Assembly (NCBI GenBank): GCA_028285405.1 | Contig: JANQPH010000051.1 | Location: 1-64,000 of the forward strand | Origin: Thermoleophilia bacterium | Lineage (GTDB): Bacteria; Actinomycetota; Thermoleophilia; Miltoncostaeales; Miltoncostaeaceae | DNA: 64,000 nucleotides | Direction of reading: 5' to 3' | Shown here: positions 18,881-27,227 of the stretch, piece after piece | Numbering within the stretch: position 1 is the first letter of the stretch | How the letters are laid out: every line of letters starts with the position of its first letter | The notes under the pieces: model-generated | Told to the model about the DNA's origin: nothing | Database searches by the model: none | The model's input: the letters and a program-made list of their open reading frames with translations, nothing else | Translations under genes and position numbers: made by a program

Positions 18881-19147
18881 GTGCCTGGAGATCGAGTGTC
18901 ACATCCATCTGGAAGGGTCGACCGTCGGGGCGAGTCGTTGGCGCCCGATCCCGTCCAGGACCGAGAGCGCAGGCGGGCGGTCGTGGCGAGCGTTCTCGTG
19001 GTTTGCGGCGCGATCTTGCTCGTGTGCGTCGCGCTCCTCGTCTGGGCCGGGATGATCATCAAGCGTGCGGGGAGCGTCTCGGCCGGTCCGGTCCCGCGCC
19101 GGTTGGGTCAGACGTCGATCCGACATTTGGCAGGATCGCCGCCGTGA
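18881..19147 (+). CDS. Possible small membrane protein coupled to the ion channel gene
   Basis: Up to 88 aa from a GTG. It contains one strong transmembrane helix (AVVASVLVVCGAILLVCVAL, about residues 34-57) followed by WAGMIIKRAG. Its stop overlaps the GTG start of the channel gene by a GTGA, the usual translational-coupling arrangement in this window, which is the main reason to list it. The N-terminal third is low in protein-like composition, so the true start may be further in. Confidence 0.35.
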   Translation: MPGDRVSHPSGRVDRRGESLAPDPVQDRERRRAVVASVLVVCGAILLVCVALLVWAGMIIKRAGSVSAGPVPRRLGQTSIRHLAGSPP

Positions 19148-20151
19148 ATCGTGACGAGGGCAACGGCTCGCCGGGTTCGCCCCACGAGGGCAGCGCGCAG
19201 CTCGACGAGGACACCCCGCACCCGATCGTCCCGATCGACGAGGGCGTGCCCGCCGAGCCGACCGGCTGGGTCGTCGCCCGCACCTGCACGGTCATCGCCA
19301 ACGCGCTGTGGTTCCAGTGGGCCGTCGTCGGGGCGATCATCGCCAACGCCATCGTCCTCGCGCTCGAGACCTACCCCCGGGTCGACGATCGCTTCGGCGA
19401 CACACTCACCACGCTCGACAACGCGTTCCTCTATCTCTTCTCGGTCGAGATCGTGATCCGGGTGCTGGCCTACGGCCGCAGGCCGTGGCTGTTCCTGCGC
19501 GAGCCGTGGAACATCTTCGACCTCGTGGTCGTCGGGGCCGGCTACATCCCGGGCATCGGCGCCGGCTCGACCGCGCTGCGTGTCGTCCGCATCCTGCGCG
19601 TGGCGCGCATCGTCAGCGTCGTCCCGGACCTTCGCATCGTCATCAGGGGCCTCATGCGAAGCATCGCGCCGATCGGGGCGGTGACGTTGCTGGCGTTCAT
19701 GCTCTTCTACCTCTACGGCATGGTGGGCTGGCTGCTCTTCCACGAGCAGAACCCCGAGGAGTGGGGGGACATCGGCCGCTCGATGCTGACCCTGTTCGAG
19801 GTCCTGACGCTCGAGGACTGGGTCGACGTGATGGACCGCGGCATCTCGATCCACCCGTGGTCGTGGCTGTATTTCCTGAGCTTCGTCCTGGTCACCGTCT
19901 TCATCGTCCTGAACATCGTCATCGCGGTGGTGATCAACAGCGTGGAGTCCGCCCGGGACGAGGTCACCGGCCACGGGTCGGACGACGAGGACGGCGACGC
20001 GGACGGTGGGGAGTCGCGGATCGATCCGGAGCTGGCCGCGAAGATCGCCGCGGCCCGCGCCGCGTTGGACGAGGTCGAGCGAGCCGCGGGCGCCGGGCCA
20101 GCCGCGCCGCCCAAGCGGCGGCGCATCCCTCGGGGTCCGCAAACGCCCTGA
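19144..20151 (+). CDS. Voltage-gated cation channel (NavBac/ion transporter family)
   Basis: 335 aa from the GTG at 19144 (AGGA 8 nt upstream). It is a single six-helix domain that would form a homotetramer. S1 covers about 55-75 and S2 about 94-110; S3 carries WNIFDLVVVGAGYI. S4 has four arginines at three-residue spacing (R146, R149, R152, R155). S5 is followed by a pore helix and filter TLEDWVD at 222-228, and S6 by FLSFVLVTVFIVLNIVIAVVINSV. After S6 come an acidic linker and a helical C-terminal segment (ELAAKIAAARAALDEVERAA), as in NavBac coiled coils. The filter differs from the usual TLESW sodium filter, which points to altered, possibly calcium, selectivity. Confidence 0.88.
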   Translation: MNRDEGNGSPGSPHEGSAQLDEDTPHPIVPIDEGVPAEPTGWVVARTCTVIANALWFQWAVVGAIIANAIVLALETYPRVDDRFGDTLTTLDNAFLYLFSVEIVIRVLAYGRRPWLFLREPWNIFDLVVVGAGYIPGIGAGSTALRVVRILRVARIVSVVPDLRIVIRGLMRSIAPIGAVTLLAFMLFYLYGMVGWLLFHEQNPEEWGDIGRSMLTLFEVLTLEDWVDVMDRGISIHPWSWLYFLSFVLVTVFIVLNIVIAVVINSVESARDEVTGHGSDDEDGDADGGESRIDPELAAKIAAARAALDEVERAAGAGPAAPPKRRRIPRGPQTP

Positions 20152-24171: not shown

Positions 24172-24263
24172 GGGTTCAGGGCGGCGGCTCCCGCCGTCGA
24201 TAGGGGAATGCCGCCTTGGGGCGGGCTCCGAGGCTCGGCGCCAACCCACGAGAGGGATTCCGG

Positions 24264-27227
24264 ATGGGCCGCGTACGTCGCTCCACCACGACACGGATGA
24301 TCGCGGCCGTGAGCGCCGTCGGGGCCGGGCTGGCGCTGGCGTCCGGTGCCGCAGCGGCCACCGTCGCGGGGACCCAGGGCAACGATCGGCTCGCCGGCAC
24401 CCCCACGGGCGACGTGATCAGGGGCTCGGCCGGAGACGACCGGCTTCGTGGTCGCGAGGGGAACGACCGGCTCGCCGGTGGCATCGGCGACGACCGGCTC
24501 GACGGTGGGCGGGGGCAGGACAACCTCGTCGGTGGAGTCGGCGCCGACCGGCTGCGGGGCGGTCCCGACCTCGACTCGTTCGACGCCGGCCCCGGCGACG
24601 ATGTCGTCGACGCGGCCGACGGCATCGGCGAGCAGGTCGCCTGTGGCCCCGGCGACGACACCGCCCGCGTCGACGTCCTCGACACCGTCGACGAGAGCTG
24701 CGAGACCGCGGCGGTCAGGAGCGTTCGGGGAATCGGCGCGGAACTCTTCTGGAGCGGGCTCTATCCGCGCCGGATCGGCGCCGCGCGAACCGACGGCAGC
24801 CGGGTCGACCGCAACCTCGTCCGCGCGTTCGGCATCAGCGTCTTCGGCGGCGTTGCCAGCGACAGCCGCCACGTCTACTGGGTCGACTTCACGACCGGCC
24901 GTCTCATGCGCGCTCGTCACGACGGGACCCGGGTCCGCACGCTCGTCCGGAACCTCGGCTTCGCGTCGATCCACGACGTGGCGGTCGACGACAGGTACAT
25001 CTACTGGACGAACGCCGAGCGCTCGCTGATCGGCCGCGCCAGGCTGAACGGCAGACGGGTGGACAGGCGGTTCATCGTCCTCCCGCGGAGCGTCGAGCCC
25101 TCGGGGCTCGCGGTCTCCCGAGCGCTCAACGCCATCTACTGGACCGATCGCTCGGGCCCCCTCGGCTTTCGCGGCAGCCGCATCGGCCGGGCGAACCTCG
25201 ACGGCTCGGGGGTCGATGTCGGCTTCTTGCCACTCCTGATCCGGGGCGCCCTCGCGACGGACGTTGCCGTCGGCCAGCGGGGCCTGTTCTGGACCGATCA
25301 CCTCGGCAAGCGCGTCGGTCGCGCGAACGCCGACGGCTCCAACGTCGACACCAGCTTCGTGCCGGCGTCCCGTGCCCGGACGACGCTTCCAGGTGGGATC
25401 GCGGTCGATGGGGCGCACGTCTACTGGAGCGACCTGATCGGACGGATCCTGTCGCCCGGAGACTCGATCTCGCGCGTGAGCCTCGATGGCACCGGGGTCG
25501 AGCGACGGTTCATCCGCGGCGCCAATCGTCCGTGGGGTGTTGCGGTCGAGCGGGCCCCACTGATCTCCGCCAAGCCGGGTCGGATCGACTTCGGGGACAT
25601 GCCCGTCGGCAGCGGCCCGACCGCGTCACGCGCGACGACCGTCGAGAACGTCGGCAACTGGCCGCTCCAGGTCGTCGCGACGGGCCTTCGCGGAGCGGAC
25701 GGGGCCCAGTTCACCATCACGCGCGATGCGTGCTCGGGCCAGACGCTTCCTCCCGGGGCCACATGTGCCGTCGAGTCTGCGTTCGACCCGACGGCACCGG
25801 GGGGCAAGCAGGCGAACCTGGTGATCCAGAGCGACTCCGCGACGCGCTCCAACACGCGTGTTCGTCTGCGCGGGGTCGGAACCCAGGCGCGGGTGGCCGT
25901 GTCGCCGACGAGCGAGGACTACGGCAGCCGAGCGGTCGGCGCGGGACCGTCGGCACCGGTGGGCTTCACGGTGTCCAACGGCGGCGACGCGCCGCTCGTG
26001 GTCGGGGCCGTGGCGCTTGCGGGGAACGACCCCAACCAGTTCTCGATCACCTCGGACCGCTGCACAGGGACGCGGGTCGCACCCGGCGCCAGCTGTGAGA
26101 TCGGCGTGGTGTTCGATCCGTCGACCGCGGGCGACCTGCAGGCCAGTCTGCGGGTGCCGACGAGCGATCCGAACGTACCGGTCGCAACTGCTGGGCTCGA
26201 GGGTCGGGGCGTGACGGCGGCCGCGGCGATCGCGCCGCGTGCCGCCGACTTCGGCACCGTCGACGTCGACGAGCGGTCCGGTCCCAGGACCTTCACGGTA
26301 ACGAGCGTCGGCGGGGCCCCGCTCGACGTCACCCGGGTCCAGCTGACCGGTGCCGACTCGAGTCAGTTCTCGCTGACGGGGACGACGTGCAACGGGGCCA
26401 CGCTGCCGCCGGGTGGCACCTGCGACGCGACGGTGGTGTTCGCCCCATCCGCGGGCGGAGCGTTCCGCGCCGATCTCGAGGTGACCGCCGACGATCCTGG
26501 CATCGGCAACCCCGCCGCGATCGCCGTGATCGCAGGCAACGGTCGCAGCCCCGGGCCCCCGAACCCACCGCCGAACCCGCCGTTCCCGCCGAACCCACCC
26601 TTCGACCCGGCCGACGACTGCGGCGTTCCCGAGATCACCAGCACCGCGGCGAGCGGCGGGACGACTCGCCGGATCGCCGGCGTCGAGCAGCGGTTCCTGA
26701 CCCGCGACTACAACGCGCCATGGGCGGCGCGCGGGACGACCCGGTGCGCGTCCGGCATGGTCATCAACTTGTACGGCCCGCTGCTCAACCGCCGGTCCGC
26801 CGTCCGCCTTGCCGAGCGCGGCGACTCGCTGCCGGTCCAGAAGGTCGCTCAGGCAACGATCGATCAGAACGGCGGCTTCAGCCTGCCGGCCCAGGCGCGC
26901 CCTGCCGGTCAGTACTTCGTCGCCCTCGGCGACTCCGACCCGCTGTCCGGAACGCCGATCTGGGTGCGCCTGAGGCCGACGGGAACCGCGGTGCCGAAGG
27001 GCCCCACCACCGTGCGTGCGTTCGTCGGTCCGCCTCAGGCGACGGAGGGCGAGCCGGTCGTCCTGCAGCGCCTGGTCGGTGGCGAGTGGAGGAACTTCTC
27101 GCGCGGGACCGTGAGCCGGCAGGCCCGCGTCGACCTCGCCGCACCGCCGACGGGCAGGGTTCGCGCCGTCGTCGAGCCGCCGGACGAGATTCTGATCACG
27201 CGTCGCGTCTTCGACGTCGACCGCTGA
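24264..27227 (+). CDS. Large secreted protein: RTX-like repeats, YWTD-type propeller, three choice-of-anchor-D domains
   Basis: 987 aa from the ATG at 24264 (AGAGGG 7 nt upstream; an earlier in-frame ATG at 24216 lacks a site). Signal peptide to about residue 32. Residues ~36-125 hold glycine/aspartate nonapeptide-like repeats (GNDRLAG, GDDRLRG, GNDRLAGG, GDDRLDGG, GADRLRGG, GDDVVDA) as in calcium-binding RTX proteins. Residues ~165-430 repeat YW-strand units (HVYWVDF, YIYWTNA, AIYWTDR, LFWTDHL, HVYWSDL) like a low-density-lipoprotein-receptor beta-propeller. Three ~105-residue Ig-like domains follow, each with FG.v.vG...FtI..D.CsG..L.PG.tC...v.F.P. Next come a proline-rich linker and a C-terminal beta domain. 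Probably an extracellular adhesion/matrix protein. Confidence 0.85.
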   Translation: MGRVRRSTTTRMIAAVSAVGAGLALASGAAAATVAGTQGNDRLAGTPTGDVIRGSAGDDRLRGREGNDRLAGGIGDDRLDGGRGQDNLVGGVGADRLRGGPDLDSFDAGPGDDVVDAADGIGEQVACGPGDDTARVDVLDTVDESCETAAVRSVRGIGAELFWSGLYPRRIGAARTDGSRVDRNLVRAFGISVFGGVASDSRHVYWVDFTTGRLMRARHDGTRVRTLVRNLGFASIHDVAVDDRYIYWTNAERSLIGRARLNGRRVDRRFIVLPRSVEPSGLAVSRALNAIYWTDRSGPLGFRGSRIGRANLDGSGVDVGFLPLLIRGALATDVAVGQRGLFWTDHLGKRVGRANADGSNVDTSFVPASRARTTLPGGIAVDGAHVYWSDLIGRILSPGDSISRVSLDGTGVERRFIRGANRPWGVAVERAPLISAKPGRIDFGDMPVGSGPTASRATTVENVGNWPLQVVATGLRGADGAQFTITRDACSGQTLPPGATCAVESAFDPTAPGGKQANLVIQSDSATRSNTRVRLRGVGTQARVAVSPTSEDYGSRAVGAGPSAPVGFTVSNGGDAPLVVGAVALAGNDPNQFSITSDRCTGTRVAPGASCEIGVVFDPSTAGDLQASLRVPTSDPNVPVATAGLEGRGVTAAAAIAPRAADFGTVDVDERSGPRTFTVTSVGGAPLDVTRVQLTGADSSQFSLTGTTCNGATLPPGGTCDATVVFAPSAGGAFRADLEVTADDPGIGNPAAIAVIAGNGRSPGPPNPPPNPPFPPNPPFDPADDCGVPEITSTAASGGTTRRIAGVEQRFLTRDYNAPWAARGTTRCASGMVINLYGPLLNRRSAVRLAERGDSLPVQKVAQATIDQNGGFSLPAQARPAGQYFVALGDSDPLSGTPIWVRLRPTGTAVPKGPTTVRAFVGPPQATEGEPVVLQRLVGGEWRNFSRGTVSRQARVDLAAPPTGRVRAVVEPPDEILITRRVFDVDR

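Follow-up and report, generated by a model that had tools for sequence, protein, structure and literature searches.

Two bacterial channels of the ancestor-like BacNav (AnclNav) group, as that group is defined in PMC7041947, bear selectivity filters closely similar to the one described here: CavMr of Meiothermus ruber, a native Ca2+ channel with the filter TLEGWVD (PCa/PNa 218), and NavPp of Plesiocystis pacifica, a Na+ channel with the filter TLEDWTD (PCa/PNa 0.308, PK/PNa 0.16) that is blocked by Ca2+ and alone among the ancestor-like channels shows block by divalents (PMC10349818). Measurements exist for TLEDWVD itself in two mutants, one of each channel (PMC7041947). In CavMr-G4D, PCa/PNa fell to 7.73 +/- 2.24, with PK/PNa 1.20 and PCs/PNa 0.87 (Table 1 of that paper), and in NavPp-T6V it was 1.72, with PSr/PNa 33.9 and PK/PNa 0.99. 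(The error on the 1.72 differs within the source, being +/- 1.09 in its text and +/- 0.19 in its Table 1.) PK/PNa is thus about 1 in both mutants, so they have little Na+/K+ selectivity. The data cited from the same paper assign Ca2+ selectivity in the ancestor-like group to the glycine at filter position 4 and not to added acidic residues; removal of Asp7 in CavMr-D7M left PCa/PNa at 144, and NavPp remained Ca2+-blocked when given TLEDWSD or TLEDWAD, filters that the paper describes as Ca2+-selective in NavAb or NaChBac.

The literature is nevertheless in conflict on what this filter means for Ca2+. The review PMC10120453 states that an Asp one residue beyond the selectivity Glu is "always" calcium-selective, and cites NavAb with TLEDWSM, whose permeability to Ca2+ over Na+ rose about 100-fold; NaChBac with LEDWAS likewise carries Ca2+ current (PMC7764494). 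This rule is opposed to the loss of Ca2+ selectivity, or the block, reported in PMC7041947, and a text search of the review gave 0 occurrences of NavPp. The strings TLEDWVD and LEDWVD were not found in the literature searched, where PMC7041947 names its mutants G4D and T6V, and that search brought up no electrophysiology on a native channel with this filter. The window channel has a filter variant on which published findings genuinely disagree.

The window, by which we mean the whole 64,000-nucleotide stretch analysed, contains such a channel gene at 19144–20151 on the forward strand (as are all features below). Its frame is open from a GTG start at 19144 through the stop ending at 20151 and encodes 335 aa; the assignment rests on the open reading frame, a Pfam match and an N-terminal motif, PIDEGVP (residues 30–36), that aligns with the same motif in the relative L002. 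A possible ribosome-binding site, AGGA (19132–19135), is suggested 8 nt upstream of the GTG from reading of the sequence only. Residues 55–272 match Ion_trans (PF00520) with E = 7.2e-48 (163 bits; curated cut-off 25), giving the protein the six-helix domain of the voltage-gated ion channel superfamily, and a search of NCBIfam profiles with the protein gave no match. With phmmer, 154 PDB sequences matched at E <= 0.001, and the 60 of these that were listed are either Cav/Nav channels of four domains or Nav channels of bacteria, NavAb and NaChBac for example, the latter being the closest bacterial entry among those listed (6vwx, 1.8e-51). The identity of 19144–20151 as a voltage-gated channel is far beyond chance. 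The gene encodes a genuine channel of this bacterial type, ordinary as a protein but with a variant filter. The initial annotation, which had called it a NavBac-type channel with filter TLEDWVD and had numbered filter positions 3, 4 and 7 as Glu224, Asp225 and Asp228, is borne out by the intact frame, the Pfam match and the alignment. The gene is single-copy in its 2.41 Mb genome; another Ion_trans match above the cut-off in that genome has a K+-channel-like TVGYGD filter.

The voltage-sensor domain S1–S4 (19306–19659, residues 55–172) was placed by invariant alignment columns and low-confidence AF2 helices. It has the S4 arginine repeat R146, R149, R152 and R155 with S2/S3 counter-charges E102 and D126, and these residues and F99 do not vary among five aligned rows, one of them a canonical TLESWSM channel; the sensor is complete. 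The S6 pore helix (19861–19968, residues 240–275, with the conserved Asn257) was assigned from the alignment and the AF2 model. It is followed by an acidic neck, DDEDGDADGG (19981–20010, residues 280–289), which resembles NEEDGEADG of NaChBac (EEDGEADG against DEDGDADG in the matching segment) and is not retained in the closest relative, L002. The C-terminal helix that AF2 places at residues 295–314 (20026–20085) shows by eye a 4-3 heptad of L297, I301, A304, L308 and V311 and is a probable tetramer coiled coil, a further likeness to NaChBac. The AF2 model was built from five sequences and is poor (pLDDT 60, pTM 0.39), so it is used for helix order and fold neighbours only; the order is as expected, at low confidence, and the Foldseek neighbours are NavMs, NavAb, NavCt, NaChBac and CavAb.

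Relatives of the channel turned up in 6 of 42 genomes from the order, 54 of 399 in the class sample and 18 of 396 in the phylum sample. This patchiness within the order is what a decayed gene or an assembly error might leave, but a non-working channel is highly improbable given the intact frame, the full set of voltage-sensor residues and a dN/dS well below 1 against the nearest relative (NG86, 305 codons, dN 0.26, dS 0.67), which points to purifying selection. In the pore 85 of 103 residues are identical to that relative, and the 13 residues MLTLFEVLTLEDW plus VD are identical across three genera.

The filter itself (19807–19827, residues 222–228) reads T222, L223, E224, D225, W226, V227, D228. 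It is unlike the filter of canonical sodium-selective BacNavs, which begins TLESW and has no charge at positions 4 and 7; NaChBac (TLESWAS), for example, has Ser4 and Ser7 where the window channel has Asp. It agrees with CavMr and with NavPp at six of seven residues each. Like CavMr, the window channel is a one-domain six-helix protein, but it has Asp225 for the Gly4 typical of CavMr-type filters, the very change that cut PCa/PNa of CavMr from 218 to 7.73. It also lacks the disulphide loop that CavMr is reported to have after the filter, in the P2-S6 region (PMC10120453), since its only cysteine is Cys48 and no cysteine pair is present there. With NavPp it shares Asp4 and Asp7; it differs in having Val for Thr at position 6, and in NavPp this substitution left no selectivity against K+. 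The engineered filters of CavAb and of the NavAb and NaChBac Asp mutants (TLDDWSD, TLEDWSD, TLEDWAD) resemble it in their acidic positions and, by the weak model, in fold; the acids at positions 3, 4 and 7 of CavAb are matched by Glu224, Asp225 and Asp228, with Glu in place of Asp at position 3. Those mutants were, however, made on canonical BacNavs, in which the filter Trp and S6 stand one residue further apart than in the window channel. Because the stretch between the filter Trp and the conserved Trp of S6 has one residue fewer here than in NavAb, the NavAb counterpart of Asp228 is uncertain. Divalent block can also be installed in NavAb at Leu176 (PMC10349818), and the counterpart of that residue here, Leu223, is kept as Leu. 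In the Cav3 T-type channels, repeat I (TLEGWVD) and repeat II (QEDW) align with the window filter with no gaps there, although these channels consist of four fused repeats with an asymmetric filter.

The ancestor-like BacNavs stand apart from the canonical groups and have an additional acidic residue in a TLExW filter, as does the window channel. In a 70-row tree, from which the filter columns had been removed beforehand, nine canonical-side rows, NaChBac among them, are split from the window channel by a branch of moderate support (bootstrap 94, SH-aLRT 77), so that it falls with neither the Bacillus nor the NavAb-like groups. CavMr and NavPp were not among the rows of this tree, and by sequence the window channel appears to lie outside the canonical sodium-selective BacNavs with an affinity to the ancestor-like group. 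Rows left out were L002 (same protein as L006), L064–L068 (weak), L069 (the window again), L070 (K+-channel-like), L071 and L073 (frame broken), and the truncated L038, L040 and L056 (filters TLEGWPD, TLEGWNE and TLEDFPQ). Class-sample matches in G290 and G268, second pieces in G241 and G179, and some others also lie outside the rows, and the relatives on plasmids come from 10 of 39 records.

Position 4 in the 70 rows is Gly in 27, Asn in 25, Asp in 9, Ser in 8 and Thr in 1. TLEDWVD occurs in exactly three, the window channel, L006 and L007, each from a different genus of a single family, and all three have a glutamate at residue 219 (codon 19798–19800; P1 helix, filter position -2), which aligns with Gln172 of NavAb, is Gln in NaChBac also, and is found in 0 of the 67 other rows. 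This set of three channels with Glu219 is what is new here; the co-occurrence of Glu219 and TLEDWVD is suggestive and does not amount to a correlation, because three rows of one clade represent one evolutionary event. The clade is well supported (window with L006 100/96; with L007 99/91) and in the tree it sits next to the remaining actinobacterial rows as a whole (95/87). Gly4 is found in the three further channels from this order (TLEGWIE, TLEGWNT, TLEGWNS). A constraint joining the TLEDWVD clade with the three same-family Gly4 rows was not rejected (p-AU 0.291), nor was one joining it with an Asp4 channel of Pseudoalteromonas (p-AU 0.156). Native Asp4 channels thus stand alongside Gly4 channels of the same family, and the conflicting rules can be tested on natural proteins.

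We consider it somewhat better than an even bet that the window channel is voltage-gated, only weakly selective among cations and sensitive to Ca2+. Both TLEDWVD mutants are weakly Ca2+-permeable and nearly non-selective between Na+ and K+, and therefore a dedicated Ca2+ channel is not the default expectation; in addition, the Ca2+ determinant of the ancestor-like group, Gly4, is absent. The channel is probably poorly selective rather than a dedicated calcium channel. Four subunits of a homotetramer would put rings of Glu224, Asp225 and Asp228 around the pore, with Glu219 deeper. Depolarisation would open S6, Na+ and K+ would pass with little discrimination, and Ca2+ and Sr2+ would bind the acidic rings, giving modest divalent permeation while slowing or blocking the monovalent current. 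Its role would then be monovalent cation entry on depolarisation, governed by external Ca2+, and not a dedicated route of Ca2+ entry. Against this, the roughly 4.5-fold difference in PCa/PNa between CavMr-G4D and NavPp-T6V means that the backbone matters, and the backbone here carries Glu219; Asp4 would also be expected to raise Ca2+ permeability, judging from NavAb and NaChBac (PMC10120453, PMC7764494).

Those same two precedents, in which Asp4 made canonical channels Ca2+-permeable or Ca2+-selective, and the "always" of the review are the main argument for a native calcium-selective channel, in which the acidic rings, chiefly the HFS+1 "beacon" Asp225 just outside the Glu ring, would bind Ca2+ as in CavAb and the NaChBac mutants. 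Glu219 would add a further acid, and Cav3 chains were the top phmmer matches among solved structures, but a four-domain chain sums its matches and the "edw" repeat is repeat II. The genome of the window also has one exporter gene of the Na_Ca_ex family (PF01699), but across the order such genes are present in 4 of 6 genomes with the channel and 14 of 36 without it, with no clear link. In the values cited from PMC7041947, TLEDWVD did not confer high Ca2+ selectivity on either CavMr or NavPp, NavPp stayed blocked with the two canonical calcium filters, and the review that says "always" does not, by text search, mention NavPp. We regard a calcium-selective channel as possible but unlikely. A calcium-conducting channel had been proposed for this locus, partly on the ground that added acids go with calcium permeation or block as in CavMr. 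The phrase covers such filters and is fair for canonical BacNavs, but it is contradicted in the ancestor-like group (PMC7041947), and CavMr is a poor example, its selectivity depending on Gly4 and not on its Asp; the proposal by analogy with CavMr was rejected as it stood. The mutant values weaken the case for calcium.

A narrower version, that Glu219, Asp225 and Asp228, found together only in a small Miltoncostaeales clade, form a native acid-ring filter selective for divalents through stacked carboxylates like those of CavAb, without the Gly4 of CavMr, is rather doubtful. If it were true, there would be two natural routes to bacterial Ca2+ channels within one family, with position 4 switching between Gly and Asp. 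Preference for sodium together with a low-affinity block by Ca2+, as in NavPp, is unlikely: the two filters are the same except at position 6 and native NavPp favours Na+, but it is precisely the replacement of Thr6 by Val, giving TLEDWVD, that abolished Na+/K+ discrimination in NavPp (PMC7041947).

The neighbourhood of the gene differs in each of three loci compared. In the window an MMPL transporter and a tRNA-Val lie upstream and a weak methyltransferase match downstream; L002 has a pentapeptide-like ORF upstream (by eye), with genes for a Fur regulator and a member of the peroxidase family on its downstream side; and L007 has a GGDEF-like and an NmrA-like ORF (by eye). No neighbours or operon partners are conserved across these three loci, and a partner-gene explanation was rejected. 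A link with swimming found no support either: within the order, flagellin is present in 1 of 6 genomes that have the channel and 9 of 36 that lack it, and it was not found in the genome of the window. No phage or virus copies of the channel were seen in 50,697 phage records or in a scan of viral contigs. The gene belongs to a Thermoleophilia genome close to Miltoncostaea. The closest named relative found is a Miltoncostaea sp. MAG, MAG_Ve_Sed_04 (68% best segment), of the Actinomycetota, Thermoleophilia, Miltoncostaeales; the genus has two named species, M. marina and M. oceani, and the "soil-type" label of the initial annotation is unsupported. Elsewhere in the window, a 1003-aa ORF at 24216–27227 begins with a region of glycine-aspartate repeats (NDRLAG, GDDRLRG) which by eye resemble Ca2+-binding repeats of the RTX type.

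Other native Asp4 filters were seen in L074 (Pseudoalteromonas donghaensis plasmid), L076 (Microvirga plasmid) and L079 (Nonomuraea), namely TFEDWTD, TFDDWSG and TGDDWGN. The channel relative L073 on Vibrio alfacsensis plasmid pVa1 also has TFEDWTD, in a frame broken into several pieces. The strings TLENLPD, TLENFPD and TLDGLGD were not found in the literature searched. Filter position 5 has Leu, Phe, Met or Ile in place of Trp in 36 of the 70 aligned rows, many of them actinobacterial homologues; examples of Trp-less filters are TLENLPD (L014, L048, L044), TLENFPD (L018), SLEGLPD (L036), TLDGIGD (L072, Streptomyces fungicidicus plasmid p1) and AFDDMGN (L004 and L005, Glycomyces).
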